DNA from: Blastomussa wellsi | Taxonomy: Eukaryota; Cnidaria; Anthozoa; Scleractinia; Plerogyridae | NCBI GenBank assembly: GCA_947652115.1 | Contig: OX393564.1 | Location: 20,558,333-20,622,332 of the forward strand | Length of the DNA stretch: 64,000 bases | Direction of reading: 5' to 3' | In this document: in pieces, positions 2,804-52,026 of the stretch | Numbering within the stretch: position 1 is the stretch's first letter | How the letters are laid out: each line of letters opens with the position of its first letter | Notes under the pieces: generated by a model | What the model was told of the DNA's origin: nothing | What the model saw: the letters and a program-made list of their open reading frames with translations, nothing else | The model's database searches: none | Position numbers and translations under genes: made by a program

Positions 2804-5800
2804 CACTTACCCCCCATATTCACGATAGCCGCCATGATGGTTTTCGCATTGTAATGCAAATTAGCCACGTTGTTTACCAGGGAGCAAACATTGAAATGAT
2901 GCCGTTTCTCGGAAAATCGGACGATCTAAATAGTGAAGTATCTGCGGTAAAGCCACGTTTGAGAGCCAAGTTATGCAATAATGATTGCATTATAAGGAAT
3001 AGTTTGAAATAGTTACTGGATATCTTGACTTGTTTTAAGTACGCAAGCCCTTTTCTTTTTTAAAAAGTGCAAAAATTGCGTTAAACTTAAAGCATGGCTA
3101 TGAAAAAAAATTATCAGACATGATAAGAAACCAGCTGAAATTTGTCGATTTAGGCTTGCTTGCCCCCTCACAAATCACGTTCCTAATTTGCATTACAATG
3201 AGAAAACAAACATGGCGGCTATCGTGAATGAGAGTAGCGCTTAATTGCAGGAATGGCTCCGGGCTCGGAATGCACTGGGAACGAGTTTGGTTAGCTAAAT
3301 TAGACTACAAAATCACCCTGGTTAGCCTATTATAACACTGCGGTTAGCCTACTAAGCAATCCGGTTAGCCTACTGAGCACTGCGGTTAGCTTATTAAGCA
3401 ATCCGGTTAGCCTACTAAGCAATCCGGTTAGCCTACTGAGCACTGCGGTTAGCCTATTAAGCAATCCGGTTAGCCTACTAAGCAATCCGGTTAGCCTACT
3501 AAGCACTGCGGTTATGCGGTTAGCTCTCAAGAATGGTAAGGGTAACACGATAAAATCTTAAAATTTTCGGTGTTCAGCAGTCGGGCCTCGGTAGTGTAGT
3601 GGTTAGTAATAGCTCGTGTTCTGGGTGACCCGGGATCGATTCCACCTCTGTGCTTTTATAATTGACTTTTGTTTTTTTCTCTTTATTAGACGAAAAAATC
3701 AAAGTCTAAAAAAATCTAAGTGTCCCGGAGCCATTCCTGCATTTAACGCCATGTGTGAATGAGGTCTGTTGATGGCAGCCTTGGAGCAGCCTTAAAAGAG
3801 CGAGATATAATTCGACAGAGCTCAACACCTGAGTATTTTGCGCATCTAAACTCTCTGCAAGCCGCCGGACATCTCTTAAAGGGACACTGTCACCATTTTT
3901 AGCATGATTTTGGAAATCTCAAAAACATACATCAATCTTTGGAAGCTGAACAGTAATGGTTTTATTTTGTAGAACAGTACTCGAAAAATGATAAGAACCA
4001 ATTAGGAAGTGAGGATGGCTAACGATGGCGAGGATGGAAATGGATTGTGATATGGATTTTTGAAAAAGCGTCAGGATGTCAGTTTTTCAAAGGTTCAAGT
4101 TTGGCTCGAAAACTCGTTGAAATTTTGCAAAACTGTTGCTGCAGTTTGGACGTTCTTCAATAACGTGAATTTATAGCAGTTTTAGGCAAATATATCGCGA
4201 CAGTGCCCCTTTAAAGCCGTACGACTGGTGTTTGTCCCAGCGCGCCGTTTTTCAGTCATTTTACCGTATCTAAACTTTCTATAAGCCGGACGCCTCTCTA
4301 AGGCACTGTTTACACGGACGCCTTTCGTTTACACGGCGCCGAAATGAAACCGGGTTGTTTTGAAAACGCTGTCAAAAGTGGAGCGTTTTCAAAGCGATAC
4401 GGTTTCATTTCTCGTGTGGCTGAAATGGCGAAAACGCATCGATTTGAAAACAATTACGTAATTTAGCGTGAAATTGGCTGGCTCTCAAAGAGTAAACACA
4501 CAGAGTGCAGCACTTGCTTATACAAAACGCTTTGGAAAACACTTTGAAAACGGTTTTTGTGGGAGGCGCAGTGGCCTAATGGTTAGTGCGCTGGACTCTG
4601 GATCGGACGGTCCGGGTTCGAGTCCTGGCCGGGCCACTGCGTTGTGTTCTTGGGCAAGACACTTAACTCTCACAGTGCCTCTCTTCACCCAGGTGTATAA
4701 ATGGGTACCGGCGAATTTACTGCTGGGGGGTAACCCTGCGATGGACTAGCATCCCATCCAGGGGGGAGTAGAAATACTCTCTGTCGCTTCATGCTACAGA
4801 AACCGGGATAAGCTCCGGCCTGATGGGTCACTAGGCCCGACTGCGGACTTACCTTACCTACCTTGAAAACGGTTAGATAGTCTCCGTGTAAACACTTCAA
4901 AATTGTGTCGTTTTCGATGCGGTTTCGTTGTCTTGAAACCGTGTCGATTGGAAAACGCGTTCGTGTAAACGTAGCCTAAGACGGACAACTTGTGTTGGTC
5001 CCTGTGGGCTGTTTTTCAGTCATTTTACTGTATCCAAACTCTCTATCAGCTGAACACCTCTCTAAGACGGACAACCGGTGTCGGCCCCTGCGCGCCGTTT
5101 TTTAGTCATTCTACTGTACCTAAACTCTCTATAACACGGACATCTCTCTAAGACGGACGACTGGTGTCGGTCTCTGTGCGTCGTTTTTCAGTCATTTTAC
5201 TGTATCTAAACTCTCTTACTCGGACATCTCTCTGAGACAGACAACCGGTGTTCATCCTCATATTTTCCACGTGTCTGTTCTGCGCGAATTTTCTTCTTTA
5301 GGTATAAGGCAAATAACTTTATAATTAGAAAACAAAGATCACAAAATGGTTAAACGGAACACACGCAATATAATTTTACCAAGTGATAACTGATAGGTCC
5401 AAGGTCTCTCGCTTTTGTCCAAGATTTTAATTAAAAGTTGTAACATTTAAATTGCAAAATCACGAAGGCAGCTGTTTAAACTGGCACAAGATAAACATGG
5501 TATTTTAGCGCTAATTTTCGCGTGTATCAAGAGTGTATCCAAGGGCCATTTGTGATTAGAAAAATGCAGTGTTTTTAAATTTAACTATATTGTCTATATT
5601 CATAGCTGCAGATCAGAAATTTATTTTATGCAGATTGAATAATAATAAACAAATGGTAATAAATGTCTGTTTTGTACATGGACCGCCTAATTATGTTCGT
5701 TACTTTGAATCGCCAAAAAGAAGAGAAACTGAATGACAATTTAACGGTTGACAGTTGACTGTGAACGTATTTTAACGACAAATCTACTTGTTACCATATA

Positions 5801-6941: not shown

Positions 6942-7836
6942 GGCCGTTGAAGGTTGTTCCCGAATGTTCACTGATTTGGGCGCTTAGCAGTTAACCAATT
7001 AATCCGTTGGCGAACGAAACATTGTCTGCTGAACATTGTAAGGCAAATAACACGTATATTGAATGTTTGTGGAAAATGACGGAAAGTATGTGACATTTGT
7101 CACCTCACGAGATACCGCTGTACATTAACTGCGTGTATCTGCCCAAGATACAAGATCCGTACGAGTCGTACTTTTGAACTGCGAACTCTAAATGCGAAAT
7201 TAAACTACGAGGGAATTTGGGCGGCCATGGTTATATACTCCGCCACCGAAACAAAGCACTAACAGATAGTTAACCCCTAAAAATAAATTTTAAAACCATT
7301 TAGGACGTTCGCGCTAATTGGTTATGCGCATCGTTAACTGCGCACGCATGTAATTCGTGTTGCATTGTCACGCCACCCCATCCATCGAGCGCGCGCGCTG
7401 AGGAAAAACAAAGGGTCAGAAGCCGTTGCGTTAACTTTGCTTGTAGACCCCTAATCAAGTTTTCTGCCCACACGACATCGAATACTGTCATCATGCGGTT
7501 GTTAGGCGAGTGGAAATGTCGTCGCTAAATGCGATTTTTTTCTTTAAGGGAACCACACCAATTTAAAAATTCACTTAATGGGTCCACTTAAACAATGCTT
7601 GGCAAAGACAGAATCACTTCAGAGATTTAATTGCAATATTATTGGGCTTACAGACACTGCAGCCGTAATGGTTAACGAAGGGCAATTTTTCATATTTAGG
7701 GTGTTCTTCCGGGCACGTTATCTCCAGAACGAAATCGGTGATCCCCATTTTGTTTTACATCTCGGTCATTAGTAACACATTATCATACAGTGGTGAAAAA
7801 AAATCAGTGTTAGAAAATTTCGCGCGAACGTCCTTA

Positions 7837-12522: not shown

Positions 12523-13311
12523 TCAATCGTTTTTGCAACCAAGAAATCCATGAATACTCAACGAGGTCTTTACTCTTTTCTCGCGTTGCCTTCTATTACA
12601 GAACCACACTCGAACAACTTCTCTATCCAGGCGTAGCCCCTCGGCGATGCGGATGATTTCTTGGGAAGACGGCTTGGGTTGTTTAAGGAAATGATCTTCC
12701 AGGTGCTCTTTAGCAGTTAACCCAATGGTAGTGCGTCTTTTTCTGCGGCGTTCGGCGTTGAATTTATCCCCGCACGCCCCTCCAGAGCATTCAGCCTCCT
12801 CAAGCCAGCGCGCCAGAATCGGTTTCAGCTTGCACGCGTTCTTGAAGCTGAGTTGGAGATTCTCAAAGCGGCAGATAGTGGTTTGACTGAAATCCGTGCC
12901 ATGGACTGTGGCTAGCGCTGCTCCGACATTCGTCTGTGTGAAACCCAGCTTAATACGTCGGAGTTTGAACTGCGTTGCAAACTCCTCTAATTCGCGCAGT
13001 TTGGACGTGTCGATGGCAAAACCCAGTCCATGGACAGCTGCCATGCTGGGATCGCTGTCAAAACTCCCTATAGGGTTGAGGACAAATGGCGGCGCGACGT
13101 GAATATTACCTCGCGGGTCCATTTTACTGCAGTGTGTGACGGGTGGTAGAGATGTTGGGTGGGTAGGCATCATCGAAATCGGCGTCTCTCGAACCATCTG
13201 CTGAAATGGCGCGTATGAAACCTCTGTGGGATACGGTGGACAAGCCATGGCTGATTTCAACACCTCTTCGTCTTGTTGCCTGAATGAAGGTGCAAATCTC
13301 TGAGCCGTCAT
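12523..13311 (-). CDS. POU1F1: POU class 1 (Pit-1-like) homeodomain transcription factor, intronless
   Basis: This is a nuclear DNA-binding regulator of 262 residues. The POU-specific domain spans about residues 103-177 ([19 protein letters not shown] ... [19 protein letters not shown]). A basic linker (ERRRKRRTT) leads into a homeodomain at about 188-247 ending in [15 protein letters not shown], with the POU-type WFCNRR recognition helix. [20 protein letters not shown] and a C-terminus starting VKTSL match Pit-1 rather than POU2-6. An in-frame TAA lies directly before the ATG, which fixes the start unless an upstream exon is spliced in. Vertebrate Pit-1 has several introns and here there are none. 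Length is close to vertebrate Pit-1 (about 290). Work on jellyfish, recalled rather than checked, links cnidarian Pit-1 to sensory and neuronal cells; the role here is inference. Confidence 0.93.
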
Positions 13312-19620: not shown

Positions 19621-20816
19621 AAATCCTTCTCCTTTTCAGATTCAAATGTGATTAAATTGCAATTAATGTTACTTGTCCATTTTCGGGGATCTGAGCTCAT
19701 TTGGGAGCATGCATTGTCAGCATTTTTCTTTGCAAATACCAGGTTGGGCAAATAATTGCATTGTGAAGTATTATACTAACTGCATCTTTTCATAGAGTTT
19801 TTGTAGGCTGGGTTCAAGCATACTGTCATTAAAGTTGAAAATACATCTGGTGGAAGAGAGATGACAAGGTGATCTATGAAAAACTTTGTCCAAAAGTATC
19901 TTGGGTCATGTGTTTACTTGGTAAGTTGTATATTTCAAACAATGTGGCAACACGGGTTAAGTTTGCAGACCAACTCCCCACCGTCGTGTGGTAACTGCCT
20001 CAAATAACCTGAACAGCACAGAAGACTGGTAAGTGATAATTTATTACAGTCTTGACAATGGGGCTTTGTTGTTTAGCTGCCGACAGAGGGTCAATTCTAA
20101 TATCTGTTTTGCACAATTATCTAAGTGTACATAAATTATGCAAAACATTTTGGGCTAATTGTCTGTTGTGAAAAAAGGAATTATACACCATTTTTCAGCA
20201 GTGTGAAAATAGGCAATACATGAAGGCTACATAGTCTGGCAAATTAAAGATGTGAACATGATAGTTTTACATACATAATAAAAAGTTAGAATGAAGAGGA
20301 TGCCAGTAGAGGATGCCAAATTATACATTTCTAGTTTTACAAACTAAGATGATTGTCAGTGTTGTCTAGAAGAAAATAATATAATGCAAACTTTAGGTCT
20401 AACAAGATGCTTAAGTGGATGCCTTTAGCTCAGATAGAGTTGTGTCTGATTTCAATTCTAATCCATCAAATGAAAGAAGAGACGACAAAGTATATTGAAT
20501 ATTATGTTGACTTCTTCAGAGGCATGGTAAGAGGCACATTTTAATCAATGCAACACATGCATCTTTTCAGTTAAGTTTGCAGACCACCTCCCCAATGCTA
20601 GACACTCTCAGTCATGAGATAACTGCCTGTAATGACCTGAACAGGATTAAAAAGGTAAATGGTATTTTATTTCAGTCTTGGCATTGTTTTGCTATTAATT
20701 TAGCTGCTGACAGCTCAATTACCAAATTTACAACTGTGCAAAAATTTTGGGCCAGTTGTCTGCTATGAAATGAAAACTAAAAACATCAGTTCATGCAGTG
20801 GTATGCAAAGTCAGAA

Positions 20817-21156
20817 ATTCAACCAGGAGGGCTGCATAGTCTCACTGGTGGTGATGTTGAAAATAATAACAGCTATATATGCAATTTCTAGCTTTCTACT
20901 TGTAAGGCGGCATAATTGTTGGTAGATGAGGCCAAATTCTCTATTGTAAACCACTATTCGTGCCATTGACATATTTAACCAGGAATAATTCAACCATGAA
21001 GGCTGCATAGTCTCACTGGTGGTGATCGATGTTGAAAATAATAACCGCTATATATGCAATTTCTAGCTTTCTACTTGTAAGGCGGCATAATTGTTGGTGG
21101 ATGGGGCCAAAATTTTTTGTACACCACTATTCATGACATATTTAACCAGGAATACT
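20817..21156. repeat. 171-bp tandem duplication
   Basis: Two adjacent units share GCTGCATAGTCTCACTGGTG, TATATATGCAATTTCTAGCT and CATATTTAACCAGGAATA. They are about 90% identical by eye and non-coding. Confidence 0.85.
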
Positions 21157-21929
21157 AACCTTGAATGACACATAACCAGTATAGTTAGTTTGCCATGCAG
21201 ATTTGCAGAATGTTGACCAACCATCCTGGCGTGTTATGGCCAGATTGACACTGAGAAGAGAGTCTTTCATTCAAACTGGTGTATATAGTGCAATGGGAGA
21301 GGCTTAGCATGACCACAACAGAGAAGTATTGAAACCAACATGGTGTGAGCTGATCAATAGGCCATTTCCATATTTGCCTTTCACCTGTTTCAAAATGTTA
21401 GTCCAGGTGTACAACCTCAGGGCTGTCAATAAGCGCAGGCGACCGGCGATATCGCCAGCTACTTAAACATTTTCGCCGGCTACAATTTGGCGGAGATAAG
21501 CAGGAAAAAAGCGGTCATTACAAAAACGCTTAACAAGAGGGCCCCCAGTACCATCTACTTTCAAAATATCTCTGCATACTTCAAATCTTATTGACAACCC
21601 TGCAACCTTTCCTTATAGAAATGAGACACTGACTGTGCAATTTAAACTCATCTTTTGGTACAGGACTTGTTGTGAAATAACTAGGTAAAAGGCAACTTGG
21701 AACTGCCCTATTTATGTGTAATTACCCATCAATTTCAGTGTTGTAAAATCCGCAAACCTGAGTTATGGTAGACCAAGAGCTTTTTATGCATGCAACTTTT
21801 GATTAAGTTGATTTTCATCTGCAATTGTGACATTGTAGGAGGATGGGCCTTATCAAATGAACATTGATTGGCAACCACTGCACTGACACTTGGCAAGTTC
21901 AATCCCTGCCCAGCCATAACCTCATTCAG

Positions 21930-22205
21930 GGGTTGTACAGGTCATGCAAAACCTGGAAAGTCATGGAATTTTAGATTATCATTTTCCAGGCCTGGAAAGT
22001 CATGAAATTTTAAGTGTGGGTCATATTAATCAATTTGATTTTTCGTGAACAAATTGTAAAAACACACCCAAAATGAAAGATTAGAAGTTGACGATTTCCA
22101 CGAAAATGCTGAAAATGCTTAGGCCATGGAAATCTTCGAAAAGACATGGAAAAGGTCATGGAAAGCCATGGAATTTCAAAAGCTCGAAAGAGTACGAACC
22201 CTGCC
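21930..22205. repeat. Dispersed-repeat-like element rich in GGAAAGTCATGGAATTTT
   Basis: The phrases AACCTGGAAAGTCATGGAAT and GGTCATGGAAAGCCATGGAA occur in direct and diverged form around an A/T-rich centre. It looks like a MITE. A B-box-like GTTCAATCCC precedes it. Confidence 0.45.
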
Positions 22206-23857
22206 TAAATGACCTGTGTTACTGCAGTGGAGGTAGTGGCTTCGAACCATACCCAATTAAATGCATTTTGTTGTTTTTATGTTTGTTTTTTACAGGTATG
22301 TTTTGATAATCCTTGAGGTGCCCGAGTGAATTGGTTGCAGCCACATGGTGTAATAAGTGGTCAGGTGGTGATCAGATTGGCACGGGATGCAGTACCATTC
22401 CAGACCTGTTTCCTCGACTGTGACAGATTATTGGGGATACAAGATGGTAGGGAGGCTCTGTTGCAAATGTCTCCTGCTTACAGAACTTGTTCAGCGGTGA
22501 TGGAACAAATGTGTGATGGGAAAGCTGTCATGTGATCAGCATTGCCATGGGACCACATCACATTCAATGACACCTGAAGAGCTTTGTTGCTGAGGAGGTC
22601 TTTGTAAACTTGCTTCTGCAACGTAGGGGTGCAGGAGCCAGAGTGTGACATACCTTTGGTGGGGCTGTTGGTTTGACATAATCTCAGGGTGAACATGGAG
22701 GAAACATATCTGTGGAGCAACCAAGCTTTCATCTGGCTGTTATTTGTTGTAATGCAGGGAAAAGGCAGTTCAGAAGGACATAGAGTATAGCTTCATGTTG
22801 AGAGCATGAGCTTTTTGCATCATATCGGTTATCGGGTGAATTGCAGCTGCTGTTGATGAGCCAGCTTTGGCATTGGGCTGTGGCTCACAGGGGGCATCAG
22901 GGAAGTCAGGGTCTCTGCTGTGGTGATTGCTAGTTGTTCTAGAGGACATACCAAGATTGAACAACTAATGTAGGCATTGAAGGGGCATGAAGTCACCTCG
23001 CTTTTACATTTACAGGGCTTTGCTGTGAGCCTGACAAAGAGTGCCCTTTGACTGAAATAGAAGGGTGGTTGGTAGCTGAAAAGCCAAGGCTGACAGGGAG
23101 TATGTTGCACATAAAACTTGCAGGCCAATAAGTCTGTCACTGACTGTTCATCGGCTGCGTGCTGGTGTCTGTGATGGTCGCACACCCACTGTGTGGTTGT
23201 TTGAGGCAGTGATGGGTCTGCTTTTGCTGGCGTGGGCTGAGGTGTCAACTAGGATGACTCCAGGATTGTCTTGTGGGTGTGCTTGTTTCCACAAATCGTG
23301 AAGACTCAGTTGGATATGCTAGCCAAAAGTGTGATGTGTAGGTGGGGCTGTGTCTATGGAAAAATTGTTGGCAGGTTTTCTCATGCCACTTCTCAACTTT
23401 TACATAATGCCTCCATGCAGGTGCTTAACATCCCAGTTGTAACTTTCTTGCTTCAAGGTTGGTTTCTAAAACATTTCTTCAGTGTTGTTGTTATTGCAAT
23501 TGAGCCTCGAACAATCATTAAATTTATGTAAATAATTTCCTAAAAGGTCATTGATAAAAATAAATGAATAAACAAATAAATATAAATAAATAAATAGGCC
23601 ATTAAACAGTTAGACATAAACAATTAAATTAGACAGAGATAAACAAACAATAAATGATTTTTATTAAAAGTGAATATTGTATAATAAAATAGAGTATCAT
23701 GTTGTGTGATATTGTCCTGTTGAGAGTAATTTGGGAAAGAGTTGTTGGTTACTGACTGTTAAGAGTCAAGTGAGATGTTGTCCGTCAATAATATTGGAAG
23801 ACTGGTGGTCAGCTAAACAAATTAGTCAGTTAGCTGTGATGAAAGGTGGTTGTGAAA

Positions 23858-24027
23858 ACTATTCAGACTGGCCAATGTTCCCAACGGGAGCTGATTAAGC
23901 GCTGGAATGTAACGGAAAGTATGTGACTCGCTCTGGTTAATATATTCAAGAGTATAAATATGCGTTGTTCCACCTCGTGTCCTCCTGTTTTCCCGTAAAC
24001 TCACGGCCGCCAGTTCGAAGCTTGTTC
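23858..24027 (+). repeat. Split direct repeat A1 (170 bp)
   Basis: It runs from ACTATTCAGACTGGCC to CGAAGCTTGTTC and matches 26953-27122 throughout by eye. It contains TATAAATA at 23953 upstream of the gag-like gene, so it probably supplies the promoter. Confidence 0.9.
23953..23960 (+). promoter_or_regulatory. TATA box in A1 (candidate promoter of the element)
   Basis: TATAAATA lies about 210 bp before the first ATG that opens the gag-like frame (24164). The same box recurs in A2 at 27048. Confidence 0.55.
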
Positions 24028-24163
24028 GTTTACTGTTCTCTCGTTTGTGGCTCAAGTTCCACGTCCGCCGGCCCCACCAGCTCCACCGGCTCCACTGGCT
24101 CCGGCTCCGGCACAACCTCAACGGCCACCACAACCAGCTCAGCAAGCGCAACCGCAGCAAGCT

Positions 24164-25993
24164 ATGAATTTAGAGGTAAATATCCCTTATTCATCTTGTT
24201 TATAGTCGCAGTTTGGTCTTGGGTCATGTTAGTTGCTTTACTATATTTCGGTTCACCGCTTCGCTATATCTGTATGCTTGTTTTGGTCACTGCTGAACTC
24301 GGTGTTCGGCGAAGAATGTTTCTTTGGGCCTCTCGGGCCGGGCACGTTTACTGAATGTGTTTCAGGTGCCTTTTAGGTATGTTTGGCGTTTACTGGACTT
24401 CGTGTTCAGGAAAATTTATTCTAGTTTGGGCCTCTCGGGCCGGGCACGTTTACTGAATGTCTTTCAGGTGCCATTTAGGTGTGTTTGGCGTTTACTGAAC
24501 TTCGTGTTCAGGGGAATTTATCTTAGTTTTGGGCCTCTCGGGCTGGGCACGTTTACTGAATGTGTTTCAGGTGCCATTTAGGTCTGTTTGGCGTTTGCTG
24601 AACTTTGCGTTCAGGGAAATTTATTCTAGTTTTAGGCCTCTCGGGCCGGGCACGTTTACTGAATGTCTTTCAGGTGCCATTTAGGTGTGTTTGGCCTTTA
24701 CTGAACTTCGTGTTCAGGGAAATTAATTCTAGTGTGGGCCTCTCGGGCTGGGCACGTTTACTGAATGTGTTTCAGGTGCCATCTCGGTATGTTTGGCGTT
24801 TTACTGGACTTCGTGTTCAGGGAAATTTATTTGTTTTGGGCCTCTCGGGCTGGACATGCGTTAAGTGAAGTTATATTATGTCCCAGTTAGGTGGGGCTGG
24901 TGCCAACTGAGCTTCGTAGTCGGTAAATTGAAACGTATCATTAGGCCTCTCGGGCTGGGAATGCATTTTAATTTATCTCTGGTGCCGTCTAGGCAAGATT
25001 ATTTTACTGGTATCTGAACTCTGTACTCGATTGATTTTACTCTATGACTGGACACGCTCATTGTTGTTAATCAGTCTTGTTAAACTACTTGGAGCCTGTT
25101 TATTGAATCCACTTACTCCAGTCCTAAATACTGAATTTGTTTCTTCGTCAAATTTTTTGCAGATCCCGATAATTGAGATTCGGGTGCTTCGCCTATTGTT
25201 TATTTGGGCTTGTGATTACTCTGCCTTAGCATGAATGCTGCTCGCGGTCCTGTTCCTTATGTGCTTGAGGTTAACTCATCATTTTTGAGGGGTGGGTAAA
25301 TTTATAGCCTCGCTCAGTTTCCGAGTTACCATATTTCCTCACTAGGGATTTTGATGTTGTGTTGTGTAATCCAATAGGGGTTGTTTATACTAAATATAAA
25401 CCTTGCTGTCGGGATTGGCTGACTTGAGTGTTTGATATGAGTAATAGAGACGTGAATTCTGTTTATAACCGACTAAACGCCAATCTTTGTATTTTGCTTA
25501 GGATCAAGTTAGACAGCTCCGCGATCAAGTAGTGCAGGCAGCTCAGACATCAATGGTCGATCAGGCCCTGCTGATGGTCCGTCAGCTAGCATCCCGTCCA
25601 CCCAAAGCTTTTGACCCCTACGCGTTAATTGGGGCCTTGGAGCATCTGGAGGATGTTGGTCGCCGTTCAGCACACCCTGATCTCAGAACGTATACTGCGG
25701 TTCTTACTAATTGCAAGAAGCTGCCTCCCGGCCCTAGACTGGGTGATCTCGTGACACACATCTTGGGAAGCGACATCGAGAAGGAAGTCGCCAAGACTGT
25801 CGCCAAAATGTACAAGCCCGTGGTATCCCATCAGCAATCCGGAAATGGTGCTCCAACATACCCCAGGCCCCCTCAGGAATGGCCATACCCCGGGGCTGGG
25901 GGTACCCAGAGGTCAACGGCAAGAAATGTCAGGTGTTACAAGTGTCACCGTTTTGGGCACATGGCCCGAAACTGCCGTCAGACCTCTAATTGA
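24164..25993 (+). CDS. gag-like CCHC zinc-knuckle protein of the retroelement (two exons)
   Basis: This is a nucleic-acid-binding, probably capsid-like protein of a retroelement. The proposed coding sequence joins 24164-24175 (MNLE, donor GAG|GTAAAT) to 25502-25993 (acceptor GCTTAG|GATCAA), giving 167 residues. The C-terminus has a single zinc knuckle, CYKCHRFGHMARNC, spacing CX2CX4HX4C. The N-terminus DQVRQLRDQVVQ looks helical. The frame before MNLE is proline/glutamine-rich and open back to a TAA in A1 but has no other ATG, so it may be leader. A poly(A) signal follows at 26061. The intron holds a 103-bp tandem array. No protease, reverse transcriptase or integrase follows. Confidence 0.7.
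24325..24950 (+). repeat. 103-bp minisatellite in the gag-like intron
   Basis: GGCCTCTCGGGC recurs at 24325, 24428, 24531, 24634, 24735, 24838 and 24943, a period of about 103 bp. Units share GGGCACGTTTACTGAATGT, TTTCAGGTGCCATTTAGG and ACTTCGTGTTCAGG. Each unit contains a TTTCAG|GTG acceptor-like site. Confidence 0.92.
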
Positions 25994-26060
25994 CTTTGAC
26001 TTAATTTGAAGTATTTTTTTTTCGTGTACACCTTTTCTCCTCGTATGCTATTTGAGCTGA

Positions 26061-26066
26061 AATAAA
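26061..26066 (+). terminator. Poly(A) signal of the gag-like gene
   Basis: AATAAA lies 68 nt after the stop codon. Confidence 0.6.
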
Positions 26067-26309
26067 ATGTGTCCAAATTAATTATCTGTTGTACCCCTTT
26101 TTCTGTGCATTTTTACGCTTAGATGCCTCTCGTCCCTTAAGTCCAGTGGGGTCAATTGTCCCAGGGCTCTCTAAAGCCCTTTGTGCCCGACTCTTGCAGT
26201 TGCGCCGGGACTGTTGCCCTTCGCTGGTCCCTGGGGGACTCTGGTTCTCACCCGTTTTTCTTCGTTTCTTCTTTTTTTTTTGTTTTCTATGTTTTCCCTT
26301 TAGCCGCCA

Positions 26310-26703
26310 TCCAAAAGACAATGTATTCAGCAATTCCAGGTACCTGATTGGGAGATTTCGCCCGATTTTGACCCAATGGCGGCAGCTGCATCATTTCGGG
26401 AACGGGTAGTTCGCTGGACAACTCTCCCAGGGACCGTTGCTAGGGCATCAGTCCCAGGCCATGAATGCATGCTTACCCAGAAACCGCCTACAGCACACAT
26501 ACAGCTAGTTACTACATTCAACTTGAGAAGGTGCTTCGCCATGACAGCCCAAGTGCCCTGTTGACAGAGGCTGTGGATGAGCACAATCCTACTTCTGATC
26601 TAACTCGATTATATCAGGACATGAACTCCGTGAAGAACTTTGTACAGGCATTCCCTAAAGATGACACTTTGACGCGCAAATCCCCCTCTGAGAATGCACC
26701 TTA
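26310..26703 (+). pseudogene. Decayed second reading frame of the retroelement
   Basis: A long pyrimidine tract ending in TTTAG (26304) precedes coding-like sequence. One frame (VPDWEISPDFDPM...) stops near 26564. A second overlapping frame from 26465 (MHAYPETAYSTHTASYYIQ...) stops at 26703. The coding signal moves between frames without a joint, which suggests a frameshifted remnant. No domain is recognised. Confidence 0.4.
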
Positions 26704-26857
26704 GGGCGGCTGGGAAGGTTACTGATCAAACTCTTTAGGCGATATTAGGTTTGGGATTAAGTTTTGGGATAGGTTTGTGAGGTATGGGAATATGGGATGT
26801 TTGTGTGGGAGGGGGCTCTTTTCGCTATGGGACGACTGTTCCACTGCCTCGCGGAGT

Positions 26858-26956
26858 GATCCACCTCATTGTTCATACATAGAACAATGGGTCCTATTAT
26901 TTCCCAATTCTTAATCAGCGATCCGTGAAACAATGGCCAGTTTGGATATACTACTA
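26858..26956 (+). repeat. Split direct repeat B1 (99 bp)
   Basis: It runs from GATCCACCTCATTG to GGATATACTACTA and matches B2. It overlaps the start of A2 by ACTA. Confidence 0.9.
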
Positions 26957-27122
26957 TTCAGACTGGCCAATGTTCCCAACGGGAGCTGATTAAGCGCTGG
27001 AATGTAACGGAAAGTATGTGACTCGCTCTGGTTAATATATTCAAGAGTATAAATATGCGTTGTTCCACCTCGTGTCCTCCTGTTTTCCCGTAAACTCACG
27101 GCCGCCAGTTCGAAGCTTGTTC
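26953..27122 (+). repeat. Split direct repeat A2 (170 bp)
   Basis: It matches A1 base for base by eye and directly follows B1. It is followed by 125 bp of spacer containing a CCCA tandem run. Confidence 0.9.
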
Positions 27123-27247
27123 TTGTGAGAAAAAGTGATAGGGTGTTTGGGTTGGGTGGGGTGTTAGAAGGACTGGTTGATATTTCTGTTCATGTGCCCA
27201 CCCACCCACCCATCTTTTTCCTTATATCCATCCTGGCCTGCGCTCCG

Positions 27248-27346
27248 GATCCACCTCATTGTTCATACATAGAACAATGGGTCCTATTATTTCCCAATTC
27301 TTAATCAGCGATCCGTGAAACAATGGCCAGTTTGGATATACTACTA
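27248..27346 (+). repeat. Split direct repeat B2 (99 bp), right end of element
   Basis: It matches B1. It ends ...TATACTACTA and is followed by unique sequence ACTGGTTGAAGG. Confidence 0.9.
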
Positions 27347-29823
27347 ACTGGTTGAAGGCAGACTTGGCTACACACTGACGAACTTTGTAAGTAGATGGAT
27401 TATTATACACAAATGGCGTAAGGTAGGTATCTTTCTCTGAAGGTGGCTGCATTGTTTTCTTGTATTTCAATTTTCTATGTGCCTCTCATTCCTGTTTATT
27501 CTGAGATATGACCTTTGTGCTTTCATTTCTGTTCCTGCTCCCATACTTTCTTTAACCTTCCTGCAGGATTCTTATCTTATCCACATCCTTTGAAGTCCCA
27601 AGAATGTCTTTGCTTTTCTTCTGAAGTGTCCCTTTAATTCATGCTCTTCCAATAGCGAATACTGAAAACTTTTATGGTATTTCCGAGTTACGTTTCCCCA
27701 GTACCTAAACATGCGAAACCATTCGTATAGGACCTGTGTTTCACCTGCATGCTGTTTCGTGCAAATCAAAGTAATTCTCATTTGAATGGTTTTACATGAT
27801 TGAGTGCTCTTGAAAATGGTCAATTCAAGTTAAATTAAGATATTTTGCATATTAATTTTATTGTCACCGAACGTTAATGCATGTGCCAGTTGGTTTTATA
27901 TACAGTGTAGGGCCCATGTGCTGTAGGCTTGATTACCAGCAGAACTCAATGAGGCTGTCCTTCTGTCAAACCCTCCAAGACCAGTCAAAGCTAGATTAAG
28001 CCAGGAAAAGAACAAGGCAGGACATTCATCTAATTATACATTCAGAAAGTCTGCAAGATCCTGCATTGGACAAGCAGACTGTCAAAGGAATTGCCATCAT
28101 CACCATGGGCAATCTTGTGTTAAAGTATAAGCTGGGTGAGTTATGGTCAACAGGATACATTTTAGGAAATTTAATAAGCAATACCATACTAGTTTTATAA
28201 TTTGTGTATTGTCTAGTGCCAGGCTGAGATGTGCTTTGAAGCAAGTGTGAAAAGGATCTTTCTATTCCTGAGAAATGTGAAATGAGGAAATAAATATATT
28301 GACTTCCTTACTATTTGCTCAATTTTTAGGATGAGTGTCACGAGGCTAAAATAATTGCTGAAAATAATTTCTTAAAAGTGAACATTATTTAATATAGAAC
28401 TGTTTTCAAGCCTGAGGAACCAGTTGACATGATGGTAAAATATATGCAGTTTTATTAATTTTTAGTTACTTTTTCACATAATTTAGCCTTTAGTAGATTG
28501 GTATACCATTTACTTTAACAAAAGTCAGAGACTGCATGGATGTATTAATAAAACTGACAGTCTTGATTATGTTGTTATACCTCTAGTGCTACATCACAAG
28601 AGATAGAGATCAGCTGTACACATGCAGCAGTTGTGATGTACCTCTCCTGTCAGCTGAGTGGGATTGCTTTCATTGTCTTCAATGCAACAGAAGAATGATT
28701 GAGCTCAATTTAGACCAGTCTTGTTCCTAAATGGCAAAGAAAATAAACTGCTGGTTAGCACTTTTTCAAAGGTGAGAAAAACAATATCTAAATTGTACCA
28801 TACCTGAGAGACATTAATTGTATTGGGAAAGCCATAGCCCTTTTTGCACATTCAAGGCCAAGTCAGTACTAAGCCAAGTAAGCTAAGAGCTGTTACCTGA
28901 ACAGAGGGAGTCCAACTTTCCTGTTTTAATTGCTCAAAACCTCCTGGTTGGTGATCTTTTCTGGCGCTGTAATGCACTGAATTGTCTCATTCATGGGAGG
29001 GCTGCATTTGTCTGAGGTTTTGCAAGGCAATGACAGTGCAAGGCAATTTTCTGCTTAATATGATCTCAAAATACAGGAAATTGCATCTTGGAGGACTGCA
29101 TTTTATTTTCTTACTGTGTGAGAATGACCTTGGATCTCTTAGGGGCCTAGCTAACAGCACTGAGACATCATAGTTCGGCCACTTCCGAAAACCTCTGTTC
29201 TATAATTCCAAGAGGTTGGAATCTCTGAACATATTTAGTGTTCAAATTAAGGACCTGGAAGAAAATCTTGCTCCCGTGCATGAACCAGGGTGAACACACA
29301 CAGTATAACTTGTTCTGGTATGCTATATTTTGTGTTGGTGTCATGTAAATGATTACAGAGCCATGTAATCACCCCCTAAAGGTAGCATACATTATTCAAA
29401 TCCAATGGATGGCACAGGTCAACACATTCTTAAGTTATGAAAATACTCTATGCAGGCATATTTTATTTACCTAGGGGGTTGTTATTAATTAGCAATTTCT
29501 TCAATGATGTTTTTAGTTTTGATTAAAATCTTTCACTAACTCTACAGTGAAGACTTGATAATAATTTATTGTAAACTTGTATCTAACCCACAAATTTGTA
29601 TTTGTTTTTTAGCCTTCTGGGATGACCATGGGTGATCAACGCAGTCAAAGGACAGATCGGTGGCTCAGTCTGGTGTGATTCACAAGTCAAAATTCACGTT
29701 TCGAAGATTTCGAAAGATACTGAACACTGTAAGGTTGTTTCATTAATTAATGCATTGGATAAGTCTTTCACTGGTTAAATTAGGGCTATAACAGAGAATC
29801 ATCTTGACCACTGCATCAACATT

Positions 29824-30028
29824 AAGGCCTTAAACAACAAATGATCACATGGTAAAAATCCACCACGGTGGATGCATGGTAAGCTTATTACTCCCAATAA
29901 TGACTGAGAAGTGTAAACAGAGCAACTTTTACCAGTCAAATTGGACTTTGCTTTGGATGTCCCATGCCAGTTGCCGTCCAGCATGGAGGATTTTGTACCA
30001 TGTGATCTATCATCATTTAAAAGACCTA
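29824..30028. mobile_element. MITE, diverged relative of 45065-45280
   Basis: The ends AAGGCCTTAAACAACAAATG and the complement of CATCATTTAAAAGACCT match the TIR family at 45065-45280. Both also share TCACATGGTA and CAGCATGGAGGATTTTGTAC. Confidence 0.6.
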
Positions 30029-31065
30029 TTATTTTTTCGGATGTTTTAAAGTTCTTTCAATTTGTGTTGTTCTCCGGTTCTGACAGAAATCAATGTCAGT
30101 GAGATCATTTTCAGTCTTTCAGGTTTGGCTAAGAGTCCCAATGTCTGTACAATGTCAGTATTCGATTTATTAGATTAATCTAATCACTTAGAGACTTGCC
30201 ATAGCATCAAATGAAACTCTAAATAATACATGTATCTTTAGGTGTCAGACTTTGGCTATCATTATCAATAGCCCAAGTCTAAAGTGCCATACAATCTTTC
30301 AATTGATAAAGCTATTTTATTTCGAAATAATAGCTAATTAAAAGCTATAATTTTGGAATGGCAGTAGCTTGTGCACATTGGAAGCTCTTAGCCAGCTTTA
30401 AAGTCATTTTATTTCTTAAAATTACTTTAAGAAATAAAGCATCTTTAAAGCTTACTATTTACAGAAAATAATAGCTTAAAATGGTTATTATTTTTATGTT
30501 GAATAAAGATCCTACACATATTTAGAAGTTTCATTTAATGTTAAGTGCCTGAGTAAATATTTGATTAGATTGGTCATATTGAAAAAAAAAATCAAGGACA
30601 GCACTGAAGCTTGCCCGCCTGCATGAAAAGCCAGACCTGAATGAGGCGGAAAATGATTGCAGTGGACCTTAATTTCTATTCCAGAGCCTGAGAAGAAGTC
30701 TACCAAACAAGTTTGATTTATAAAATTAATGCATGGCATTGTATTTGCTTCAAAATTATGCAACTGGCACTCAAATTTTGAACAGTTTGCTGATTTGAGT
30801 ATTACTGAACTTGGGACACCGGGAGTTCTCCTTAATTTTTTAATTTGCTTTTTAACCTGGGCTTATCATAATATATAATCAACAGCAACTAACACTTCGC
30901 TTGCTGATGCATGGAGACTTCCAGGTGTTCCAGCTCTAGAGATGAGATCAGTTTCCATTACAATCATATAAACTTGTTGTGAATTAAAAATATTAATTTA
31001 AAAGCACCTTGTTAGAAGATAGATATAGAATACAATTAAACATCACTTACATTGCATGTCTATTT

Positions 31066-32300: not shown

Positions 32301-33559
32301 TATACAAGAAGGCATAACATGGCCATTTGCAACATTGTATTTCTGCCATTAAGAACAACTCAAAATTATCCTGCGATGTGAATATTGACAACTGTTAGTT
32401 TGTATAAATAATATAATTGTAACTGATGTGAAAGATGTTTAACAGTCTGGTTATGTGCAGTAAAATCAACTGGTACACATATTATAAATTTAATGATATA
32501 GGTAAGTTCAATGTCTCGAGATATATATGTACTGGTAAACATAATAGAATAATTAATTTTTACATGGGTAATGTGGAATTCTGGTTTCTTGTATTGAATT
32601 TCATCTAGAACAGATTTTGCAACAATATTTAAGTTTAAGAAACTTGGATTCCATGATATTATTGTATAGCTATTAAAGAAATAAGTTTTATTTAAAGAGC
32701 CCAATTAATGGACACATCTTGATTGGTTCCTACCTATGATCTATTAAAGGGCAGATACACTGATGACACTTATGTTTAATTTGTTTCAATCTCTGTTACC
32801 ATTTATGTAAAACAGATTCCATGTTGCCAAGTGTCAGCTGTTTGAAAAAAATCACAGAAGATAATTATGTCAAAATGTGGTAAGAACATCAGTGACCCAC
32901 ACTGCTATCACCTCGAGTGCCACTTTTTTGTTACTACATTTTGACATCATCAGTGATTTGTTACTGGTTGGTGATGTGCAGGTGCAGTGTATTTCCTTGA
33001 TATTGATGCATTTCAGATGGTAAATGTTGAAATAAAGGGCAGGAATGGCATTTTGTTGTCCTGATTTGTTTTGTACACTTGGAGGGATCCGAAAGGGGAT
33101 TCCCAGACCTTTTCATTGGTAAAGACAAATCAACTGTTACAGAGAATTTGCTGTTAGCCAGTTGATGCTCAATTATTGATAGTCTATGGTAATATGGTAA
33201 TTTGTCTTAATCATACAGGTCTGAAGGGAGATTGTTTTTTTTTTTTTCAGAGGATGCGATCCAATGAGGAGAATTAAGTTGTTTTGATACTGCATTTTGT
33301 GTGTTTTGAAGGAGAATAATATAGATATTACCCAAACATTTCAACTTCAAAATGGATTTTTGGGCACACCCATGACACCCTGCTTCCAAAGGGCCTGTCA
33401 TAGTAGACCTGTTACTTCCAAGGTGCTACACCCATTAGATAAACCACTTCCCAGTGAATACCATTGACTGTTTTGTTGTCTACTGTAGTGATTTCCCATT
33501 GTCGCCCTTTGAACAAGTAGGTCCTGGTTGCTACACATCTCTAGTAAACCAAGGGCAAG

Positions 33560-33735
33560 TGCATCATTTGTTCCACGACTGAGTCAGAAGGGGCGTGGGT
33601 CTATTCCTGGTTTGACGTCACAAAATGATTTGCATAACATCAAGGCTTTGTAAACATGCATGCAAATTAGTTTGTGACGTCAAATCGGGAATAGACCCAC
33701 GCCCCTTCTGACTCGGTAGTGGAACAAATGATGCA
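33560..33735. mobile_element. Foldback MITE with ~60-bp arms
   Basis: TGCATCATTTGTTCCAC... at the left is complementary to ...GTGGAACAAATGATGCA at the right. The arms also share GGGGCGTGGGTCTATTCC and its complement. Confidence 0.8.
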
Positions 33736-34323
33736 CAGTTTATCGTAATTTTTGAATGCTATAAATAGTCAGAATTTGGTAAAAAGGTGCAATGCGTTTG
33801 AAATTGGTGCAAAGGTTTATTCTAGCGAAAAAAATATTTTGGGGTTAGGTGCACTTTAAAAACGAGGTGAGGGCTAATTTGAATACCTACAAAAGAATAT
33901 TAAGATGGTAGCCATTTTGGAACAAGGTGAACTTAAGGAAGTTTCCAACAGTATACTCTGGTTTGTGGTATACTGTTAGTTTTTTGACACATAAAGTAGG
34001 TGCTTGAAACTGCACTGCCAATCTTTGGAGATGCAACTCATTTTTTCAGTGCAAGTCCAAGCCCCCTTTGACTTGGTTGTCTTGACAGTTGTCAACCACA
34101 GGAACACCAGTCATCATCTTCACATTACAAATAAAATATGCTCACCTAATCATAAGATAAAGCCGTGTGACTCTGATCTACGCTGCTGCTCATTTCAGTG
34201 AGTGGTTGTCAAGTCCATGCAATAAATCCGGAACTTGAAAAACCTGGTCTCCCACACAAGCCGGCCGCCATCGTGGAAAGCTGATAAAACCCTGGGTACA
34301 AGTACCCTGCCCATGCTCTTTTG

Positions 34324-34509: not shown

Positions 34510-41039
<6,530 letters not shown>

Positions 41040-47586: not shown

Positions 47587-48033
47587 AGTAGCGCTTAATT
47601 GCAGGAATGGCTCCGGGCTCGGAATGCACTGGGAACGAGTTTGGTTAGCTAAATCACCCTGGTTAGCCTATTATAACACTGCGGTTAGCCTACTAAGCAA
47701 TCAGGTTAGCCTACTGAGCACTGCGGTTAGCCTATTAAGCAATCCGGTTAGCCTACTATAGCACTCCGGTTAGCCTACTAAGCACTGCGGTTATGCGGTC
47801 AGCGCTCAAGAATGGTAAGGGTAACACGATAAAATCTTGAATTTTCGGAGTTTGGTAGCCGGGCCTCGGTAGTGTAGTGGTTTGTAGGAATAGCTCGTGT
47901 TCTGAGTGACCCGGGATCGATTCCACCTCTGTGCTTTTATAATTGACTTTGTTTTTTCTCTTTATTACACCAAAAAATCAAAGTCTAAAAAAATCTAAGT
48001 GTCCCGGAGCCATTCCTGCATTTAACGCCATGT
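47587..48033. mobile_element. Non-autonomous TIR element with 9-bp TSD, copy 2
   Basis: It belongs to the same family as 3233-3754, with the same ends and the same internal order of minisatellite then tRNA-like block. It is flanked by GATGCAACT at 47578-47586 and 48034-48042. It is shorter by 75 bp, mainly from fewer 21-bp units. Confidence 0.8.
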
Positions 48034-48665
48034 GATGCAACTGGTGATGTACATACACTTATTTATCCATCAATATAATTGGAACAGCATCTTTACATTA
48101 CTCAATAGTTTTACAAACAATTTTTAGAAAGATCACCATATTTTTTAATCTTACAGATCACAAAGAGTACTTAAACAAAGAGTATTTATAACGCTGTTTG
48201 AATTACTGATCATTCTTATGTAAATAGTGTAATAACTGTGCCTAAAGCGTAAGTGTTAAATTGACATGATTGACTTGTTGATGTAGTTTGTGTTTTGCTT
48301 GTTAATATACATAGCCTCCTTGCGTTCAAGCTGAAATTTCGTGGAGACAGAATCAAGTATTTCGAAGCGTGAACGCGTGAACCTAACTCTCTGGGGACAA
48401 GATCCTTCACTGCAAAAAGATTTCTTAATTTAATGGTAGCAAATACTTCATTCCCCGCGTATCAATAAACCAAGCTAATTCAAATAGCCAGATATACCTA
48501 GAAGTGGAACCAAAATGGCCTGCCAGACATACAGAAAAAAAGGTTTTTCTCTTTTTACCCTACAGGCTCTTTCTTTAATTGAGCTGTACGCTGAAGCTTT
48601 CCATCTAGTTGTGTTGTCTGGTTCCCGTTTCTAACAAAATCTAAGCATTATCTTTTTCGCGATAC

Positions 48666-48932: not shown

Positions 48933-49236
48933 AGGGTAAGGGGGGTAAAGTCTGCATACGAGCCCAGTGGCTCATCAGGCCGGAGCTTATCCCGGTTTCT
49001 GTAGCACGAAGCGACTACAGAGAGTATTTCTACTCCCCCCTAAATGGGATGCCAGTCCAGAGTTATCCACCAGCATTAAATTCGCCGATACCCTTTTATA
49101 AACTGGGTGAAGGGAGGCACAGTGAGAGTAAAGTGTCTTGCCCAAGAACACAACGCAATGCCCCGGCCAGGGGCTGGAACCCGGACCGTCCGATCCGGAG
49201 TCCAGCACCATTAGGCCACTGCGCCTCCTACTCAGT
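48933..49236 (-). mobile_element. tRNA-derived SINE, copy 2
   Basis: This is the same family as 4556-4862 in reverse orientation. It is flanked by AACAGTAACCAATA (48919-48932) and AACAGTAAGCAATA (49237-49250), a 14-bp target duplication with one mismatch. The left copy overlaps the end of the MITE at 48666-48920. Confidence 0.85.
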
Positions 49237-49713: not shown

Positions 49714-52026
49714 TTAGATGTTCATCTTCTGTGCAATTGTCTGTGTGGCCGCTTCCCAGTTTGCTCCAAATTCAAGCCTTGAATAAAGGAGAGGAATCTT
49801 CTTCTCCTGGAGTTTGATCCACTTGAGAGCTCGTGTTATATCTTTGGAGTACTGTTCTCCCAAGCCGCTAACAGTCACCTACAATAATCAAGAAACTTCG
49901 GTCTAAGTTACTGTTCACTCGCCGAGTCATCTTTGACTGACAGCTTACGTAGCCAACGGTTTAGTTGGGTTAGCGTGCATGAGAAGGGCGAAAGTCGCGA
50001 AAACCTGCACGTTTATAGACTCAATACCTCAACTAAATGGTCAGCTACGCAGACTGCTGAATGAATGAATTCTAAACCAATCAAAATCAAGTGTAGTGTG
50101 AGTGTGCTGTTGAATGGCGGGAAAATATAAACCAATCAGAAACAAGTGTGGTGCGTGTGTGCTGTTGAATGGGGGAAAATATAAACCAATGAAAAAACAA
50201 GTGTGGTGCGTGCGTGCTTTTGAATGGTGTGAAAATATAAACCAATCAACAGCAAGTGCGGTGCGAGCGCATCGCTGAAGGGCGAGAAAGTATAAACTCA
50301 TTAACATCAAGTGTGGTGCGATTGAGTTGAATGGCGGGGAACAGAAACGTCTGCGGGAAAATATCAACATCATGTGTGGTGCGAGCTCGCCGTTGAATGG
50401 CCGAAAAGTACGAAGATATCAACAGCGATTGTGGTGGGAAAATATAAACTTTAAACATCAAGTGTCATACGCACATACCTCGGACGCCTGTCCAAGTGGG
50501 ATGACGAGTGGGAACTCGATACACAGTCTCAGTTTTATGAACGCTAGCATCATCAACGTTGCCAGAATATTTTGTACATCTCCAAATATCTTAGGACCTG
50601 CAACGAGTCGGTCGGAAAAGCACTTAATTCTCTGAGTTGAAATGACATTTAATCTACGGTTCTGTATCGCTTACCCTGGCATCTAAACCCTCACCGTACC
50701 TCTAATGAAAGAAACTAGATACTTACCGAGGGCTCTCAAACTGATAATCCACAAATTCATATCATTATGGCAGGTGCGGCTCGAATTCATCATTACCCTC
50801 AGAAAAACAACTCCTGGTGAGAGGCTGCCCCGCCGGGGCCAAAATTGGACTCCACCGGGGTGACCTCGCGCCTTAACTTAAAAATCTCTATTATTTTTCT
50901 CGCGGTTTCTTTCTCTTTTCCGAGAAGTTGTCCTATTACCCTCAAAAGCACGACTAACGCCAGAAATTCAACTTTTTCACCTTTTACACATGTATTAGAG
51001 ATTGACTGAGTAAAACATGCTAGCCTTTGGAAATGTCTGATTTTCTGTGGTTGATTTGTGTTCATTTATGTGCGTGATTTCTTATGAGCATGAAATGTAA
51101 AATATTGGAGCGGTTTCCACTTGAGTCAGTGTCGAAACTAATTTTCGTTGGTTTTGAAATACTTTGCTTAGTGATTGGTTTAAAAATCTCGCGCACCTTT
51201 TTCAACTAATCAGGAGTAAAACCACAACCAATCGTGACTCGCGCGTGCACGTTTTCCCGCGCTTTGTGTCGGTGTAACCACTCTGACTTTTGATTGGTTC
51301 ACTGGATTGTCTCCGTCCTTTGTGATTGGCCAAAGTTATTACTTGGTTTTGGTTTTACGACACTCAATTGAAACTCACTCTAACATCAGTATTTCACAAT
51401 AGTGGACTTACCAAGAGATCTGGCACCAGCGCTTTTCAGCAAATCAATAAAGCTATTTGTGTTTATACCAATGGTAGGCAAATCATCCACTTTCCAGAAA
51501 CCATCCTAAAACATACCGCGAGGGGAAGATAAGTGAACAATCGGCAAATGCCAGATAAAAAAACGCACAACGTTTTGTTGGAACAAAAGTAAATAAACAA
51601 GCCAGTCTGTTTATGAGAATTACTACTTTGAACTTGAGTTAGAATTGCAACACGGTTCTTTATCGAAGACTCTGCCTTCACCTAGGCCGTTTCTCGGTTT
51701 TCTATCGGTCGGTTTTCCCGTATTGTAACAGTACGGATAGCCTGCGTACAGCCGTTTTTCCGCTTTAGGAATAATAGACGGCTGCACGCAGGCAACAGTA
51801 CGGACTGTTTGCAAGGATCAGCAATATGGCCTGCGTGCAGCCGTCTACTAATTCCTCACGCGAAGACTTTTCCTCCCTTTCGTTGAACGCATTCTCCTAA
51901 TCAGTGATTACTATTCTGTACTACTCACCCGGCTTTGTTTAGTAAAAATCTCTTTCATCTTTTCCCGTTTTGAGGAGATTGTGTTGAACTGTTTTGGAAC
52001 GGAACGTCTCCTTGCACGGAGTCCTT
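49714..52026 (-). CDS. PARP4: PARP4 last four exons: MVP-binding C-terminus
   Basis: The exons are 52026-51929, 51505-51412, 50597-50479 and 49878-49714. DGFWKVDDLPTIGINTNSF, NILATLMMLAFIKLRL, ALKWIKLQEKKIPLLYSRLE and FGANWEAATQTIAQKMNI follow human DGFWKLTPELGLILNLN, DLIATMLVLQFIRTRL and LELGNDWDSATKQLLGL. The stop is TAA at 49714-49716. This is the region known to bind major vault protein. Confidence 0.9.

Follow-up and report, generated by a model that had tools for sequence, protein, structure and literature searches.

What kind of mobile element carries two different direct repeats interleaved with each other, and how could one that holds hardly more than a gag gene have moved recently? 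This question is raised by an element of about 3.5 kb in a 64,000-nucleotide stretch of the genome of the scleractinian Blastomussa wellsi (assembly GCA_947652115.1, contig OX393564.1, positions 20,558,333 to 20,622,332), which we call the window and in which all positions are counted from the first letter. The evidence makes it likely that the element inserted recently and that it is a non-autonomous tyrosine recombinase (YR) retrotransposon of the split direct repeat (SDR) type, reduced by internal deletion and with the layout of PAT and Ngaro (Table 1).

Repeat A stands at the left end and internally, repeat B internally and at the right end, and this order, A1 ... B1 A2 B2, is that of SDR elements. 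Both alignment and string comparison gave 100% identity, over 170 nt for A1 and A2 and over 99 nt for B1 and B2, and the limits of the repeats are sharp, since neither pair can be extended in either direction by even one base. A2 starts at 26953, before B1 stops at 26956, so that the two have 4 bp (ACTA) in common. No similarity was found between the segment x (27123-27247) and the rest of the element, and no further copy of A or B within the 64-kb window, where the best matches outside the element are 25 nt for A (7070-7094, 88%, E 0.002) and 17 nt for B. Chance repeats were ruled out by the two interleaved identical pairs of 170 and 99 bp. Since none of the 269 positions of A and B differs (95% upper bound of the divergence, 1.1% per site), the insertion can be regarded as young. 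An earlier note, made from the letters of this stretch, had already given the coordinates, lengths and identity of the repeats, had called the insertion recent and had recognised an order of the Ngaro/PAT type. The alignments agree on all these points, A1-B1A2-B2 being the published split-direct-repeat layout of Ngaro, PAT and VIPER; its statement that B1 is directly followed by A2 holds apart from the overlap of 4 bp.

The same note had held that ordinary long terminal repeat (LTR) elements cannot give this order, and the ends of the element do contradict an LTR layout. Plants have an acknowledged LTR class of gag-only, non-autonomous elements, and a gag-only LTR retrotransposon of this TR-GAG kind was therefore considered here, but it was rejected and retains practically no probability, because the left end carries only A and the right end only B. 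LTR elements start with TG and end with CA, whereas the present one starts with AC and ends with TA. A scan for flanking duplications of 4-8 bp, at offsets of up to 4 bp, found none of the LTR type, since its only two matches, of 4 bp each, both overlap the ACTA core.

ACTA is present at both outer ends (left ...GTGAAA-ACTATTCAG..., right ...ATACTACTA-ACTGGTTG...), and joining the outer ends of A1 and B2 via the common ACTA reproduces the internal B1A2 junction exactly. This is in keeping with recombination between a circle, its B-A junction identical to the internal B1A2, and a target that has a short core in common with it; the predicted empty site consists of the left and right flanks joined through ACTA. 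At the junction itself two inverted arms, GGCCAGTTTGGATA and TATTCAGACTGGCC, flank the 6-bp spacer TACTAC, with a match of 12/14 that becomes 17/20 when the arms are lengthened. Tyrosine recombinases bind inverted arms of about such size around a spacer of 6-8 bp. Only seven places in the 64 kb have arms with a 6-bp spacer at 12/14, and four at 16/20 (the junction is included in both counts), so that such a site at the junction is unlikely by chance. The start of A and the end of B align as imperfect inverted copies with a local score of 21.5, reached by none of 2000 dinucleotide shuffles (maximum 16.5). Both the inverted-arm junction and the lack of an LTR-type duplication fit integration by a tyrosine recombinase.

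The same row of repeats could also come from two A-to-B elements in tandem, A1-body-B1 and A2-x-B2 (394 bp), joined via a common end site, for example through integration of the long element next to a short one already in place. A2-x-B2 is a complete A-to-B unit, comparable to SIRE, the counterpart of the A2-B2 region of VIPER. Two independent insertions, however, would not be expected to leave all four repeats pairwise identical, and published SDR elements carry this layout as one unit, which leaves the tandem explanation very improbable.

Table 1. Features of the element and their positions in the window
Feature	Position	Strand	Remark
Whole element, A1-body-B1A2-x-B2	23858..27346	+	3489 bp
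Repeat A1	23858..24027	+	left end, 170 bp
TATAAA boxes	23953, 27048	+	in A1 and in A2, respectively
Predicted end of gag exon 1	24164..24175	+	four codons, MNLE; donor GT at 24176
Predicted gag intron	24176..25501	+	
Gag exon 2	25502..25993	+	163 codons plus stop; CCHC knuckle close to the end
AATAAA	26061..26066	+	possible poly(A) signal for the gag mRNA
Remnant of the start of a pol-type open reading frame	26304..26537	+	predicted acceptor just upstream
Possible continuation of the pol remnant	26549..26653	+	other frame, weak
Repeat B1	26858..26956	+	99 bp
B1A2 junction, candidate recombinase site	26935..26968	.	14-bp inverted arms, 6-bp spacer
Repeat A2	26953..27122	+	170 bp, first 4 bp (ACTA) common with B1
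x	27123..27247	+	125 bp separating A2 from B2
Repeat B2	27248..27346	+	right end, 99 bp

Concerning the body of the element, the earlier note had reported a CCHC gag-like gene and a decayed frame. The gag frame (25502-25993) is present and intact, and two exons are predicted for it. With a transcript start assumed 25-30 bp 3' of the TATA box, the first ATG, found by eye, is at 24164. The donor at 24176 scored 4.4 and is by a narrow margin the best of the region 23858-26300 (runner-up, 4.3); the acceptor at 25502 is predicted to join exon 2 in phase with the MNLE exon. The knuckle has the form C-X2-C-X4-H-X4-C, and the zinc-finger Gag of Pat1-like forms, a trait not exclusive to PAT, is thus found here; against Pfam, zf-CCHC reached 19.6 bits (E 9.5e-4), just below the cut-off of 20.8. 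Among 100 candidates, 36 relatives of the gag protein were found at E of 1 or less, the closest of which, P0001, shows 97% identity over 87% of the query, while the two with an organism name come from Actinostola sp. (P0032) and Oculina patagonica (P0036), both Hexacorallia. Conservation was counted on 23 of these relatives, leaving out 13 mostly shorter or chimeric models (P0014, P0021, P0022, P0023, P0025, P0027, P0029 and P0031 to P0036). Of the 64 columns in which conservation reaches at least 90%, the window keeps 63, from which we conclude that gag is not decayed; of the 24 aligned rows, window included, 14 have an intact CCHC motif.

The predicted gag intron contains tandem units of 102-103 bp, absent from the earlier note (5.2 copies at 24323-24850 according to Tandem Repeats Finder), whose 28-nt core occurs in seven copies from 24315 to 24959; the whole array spans 24315-25040, the copies further on being diverged, and donor-like TAGGTRTGT sites are present in several units. 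A role of these repeats as structured RNA was considered and dropped, because the folding z-scores were unconvincing (-1.34, -1.43, -1.96, -2.74, -1.48, -0.71 and +1.24 for the seven units of the plus strand, -2.37 for the minus strand of unit 1). A search of Rfam with positions 20000-31000 gave no match at the gathering threshold.

The decayed frame, at 26304-26704, is also present, and can be refined: it is the start of a pol-type open reading frame (ORF) with one apparent frame change, which gives the element the appearance of a derivative by internal deletion. This remnant aligns with P0036 at 66% over 62 aa (E 3e-27) and with P0032 at 35% over 86 columns, reaching 26537 (E 1.4e-12), both E-values referring to a 3.6-kb subject only. 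The gene models of P0032 and P0036 extend gag by a further protein part, and it is this part to which the window is similar from 26304 onwards. The acceptor before this position has the richest pyrimidine tract in 24100-26900 (0.84) and is in phase with the MNLE codons. The possible continuation in another frame gave 21% over 33 columns (E 13) and the pair SVKNFVQAF and SVGDFVQPF (E 7.3), neither of them significant alone but both in the correct order. A protein search with the tail of P0032 returned one match among 64 candidates, P0037 from Actinostola (E 7.8e-19), whose continuation, PLTIEPSKPHLCQDQRYLN, we take by eye to be a motif like that of reverse transcriptase (RT); profiles and model gave no confirmation. 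The searches with P0037 yielded two chance-level lines in Pfam, one unrelated entry in PDB (E 0.31) and none in NCBIfam, and its predicted model is unusable (mean predicted local distance difference test, 36.1).

Beyond this start, the enzymes of an autonomous element are missing. The longest ORF in the element, of 163 aa, is too short for RT or recombinase; Pfam found no tyrosine recombinase on three frames of the element, no ORF for RNase H (RH) was found, only the pol-type start remaining, and there is no ORF in the element for a methyltransferase, a PAT trait whose absence here is uninformative about the parent. Since no YR is encoded, we class the element as a non-autonomous derivative and not as a full SDR member, and, with RT, methyltransferase and YR all absent from it, it may belong either to PAT or to Ngaro. 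The sequence is best read as that of an element which has kept A1, B1A2 and B2 in cis together with an intact gag, whereas its RT, RNase H and recombinase have been lost; it probably moves only via borrowed machinery, in trans.

A different account of the same absence would be that an autonomous SDR-type YR element inserted recently and lost its RT-RH-YR part later, in situ or in the assembly, the gag-only state being then one accident. In its favour, a single copy has been seen, relatives (P0032 and P0036) have gag and pol joined, and 200 N elsewhere in the window indicate that the assembly is imperfect. Even so, we consider such a later loss unlikely: the reading frame changes within the pol remnant and similarity is weak beyond that point, whereas the repeats show no change at 269 positions and the gag frame is uninterrupted, a modest argument which suggests that pol had decayed before the insertion. 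Loss of pol preceding the insertion is therefore favoured, although one copy cannot prove it.

The most likely history of this non-autonomous element is thus an internal deletion of an SDR element, followed by transport by the RT and recombinase of a relative. Transcription would begin in A1, behind the TATA box; part of the RNA would be spliced and polyadenylated, giving the gag mRNA, and unspliced RNA reading through to B2 would be the genome. The RT of an autonomous relative could copy this read-through RNA with the internal B1A2 as template, a role known from the published model of SDR elements, which would supply the ends that the RNA lacks and close a circle with a B1A2 junction. The relative's tyrosine recombinase may then bind this junction and join it to a genomic site with ACTA or part of it, so that the inserted element would be bounded by A1 and B2 without duplication of the target.

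Several observations weigh against this interpretation. RT and YR were not found in the element, and P0037 lacks profile, PDB or fold support as an RT. A protein search with residues 1-62 of the read-through from 26304 gave no match at E of 1 or less among 68 long candidates. The splice sites were predicted by simple scores, and the gag acceptor, with a pyrimidine fraction of 0.74, ties with five others. Moreover, when 1984 pairs of stretches were drawn at random from the window, where other repeats also lie, 7 aligned as well as the junction arms. Finally, no second copy exists in the 64-kb window, and no relative with the same ends was found in the contig collections scanned, which are viral and prokaryote, so that absence there means little. 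With the gag profile, 2 stretches of the viral contigs and 32 of the genome contigs matched the pattern and none was confirmed; the same was true of 2 stretches of the viral contigs with P0037. Exact motifs of the element ends occurred 0 times in the viral and 0 times in the genome contigs, and a degenerate RT-motif pattern 0 times in the viral ones.

Elsewhere in the window, a POU-class homeobox gene frame is present at 12526-13311 on the minus strand (POU-specific domain, PF00157, E 1e-36; homeodomain, PF00046, E 2e-17), and the plus-strand frame 42448-42891 matches MOZART2 (25.3 bits, cut-off 23.3). Other repeats are the direct interspersed pair 3233-3755 / 47587-48034, with blocks 94-100% identical and a 21-bp tandem repeat at 3310-3522 inside the first copy, and four 55-bp tandem units (50083-50344) inside a minus-strand open frame of 125 aa. 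A tRNA-Gln (CTG) call at 4565-4637 lies next to a repeat, within 4565-4783, that has an inverted copy at 55144-55313 (99%) and a more diverged one at 49103-49171, and which is possibly a tRNA-derived short interspersed element. There are also two near-perfect palindromes, one at 33559-33736 (77-nt arms, 92%, 24 nt between) and one at 38912-39064 (75-nt arms, 75%, 3 nt between).

Turning to known systems, split direct repeats with an internal B1A2 are described in Ngaro (PMC8547959; PMC9210276), PAT (PMC4157794) and VIPER (PMC6681497), whereas DIRS1-like elements are described as having a circle junction of 3 bp and as integrating without duplicating the target (PMC3266345). The Ngaro-like DIRS-53_XT of Xenopus tropicalis has the same order, with an A of 236 bp and a B of 152 bp, each pair 100% identical, but it encodes RT/RH, YR and an SGNH hydrolase, while the present element has only gag and the remnant of a pol start (PMC9210276). 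Pat1-like PAT elements, reported in Nematostella, likewise combine split direct repeats with a zinc-finger Gag; PAT, however, encodes RT, methyltransferase and YR, none of which is present here, and in nematode and echinoderm PAT the internal repeats are placed differently (PMC4157794). A DIRS1-type relative in Ectocarpus carries Gag-Zn-knuckle, RT-RH, methyltransferase and YR, and DIRS1-type remnants with ALOG/YR parts are found in Nematostella and Acropora; these share the Zn-knuckle Gag and direct terminal repeats with our element, a likeness by description, but the latter is without YR (PMC3537659).

The earlier note had supposed that a gag-only form of this type is not described. That is too wide a claim, since one non-autonomous SDR derivative is known: SIRE of Trypanosoma cruzi derives from VIPER and has likewise an SDR-type YR origin; SIRE, however, corresponds to A2-B2 only, without gag, whereas the present element keeps four repeats and an intact gag (PMC6681497). 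The supposition stands to the extent that no gag-only SDR element was found among the open-access literature matches listed, a scope outside which lie Repbase, Dfam and most subscription papers, nor in the available passages of PMC12477816, PMC12440569, PMC3783388 and PMC9341512. Parasites of YR retrotransposons are hardly described, SIRE being the only one in the matches listed. A recently moved gag-only SDR element would reveal which cis sequences are sufficient for a circle-based cycle, and with four repeats, one symmetric junction and one gag it is a compact test object; it would also mean that gag-only parasitism has evolved in a further class of retrotransposons, one with a different mechanism.

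The plant TR-GAG elements are likewise non-autonomous with gag only, but have LTR ends in place of the split direct repeats seen here (PMC6022998). Going farther, it is conceivable, if doubtful, that hexacorals harbour a multiplying family of gag-only SDR elements, a YR counterpart of the TR-GAGs, in which Gag is kept by selection, either for packaging the element's RNA or for interfering with the parent element, and whose autonomous parents splice one short first exon alternatively to either in-phase acceptor, here 25502 or 26304.

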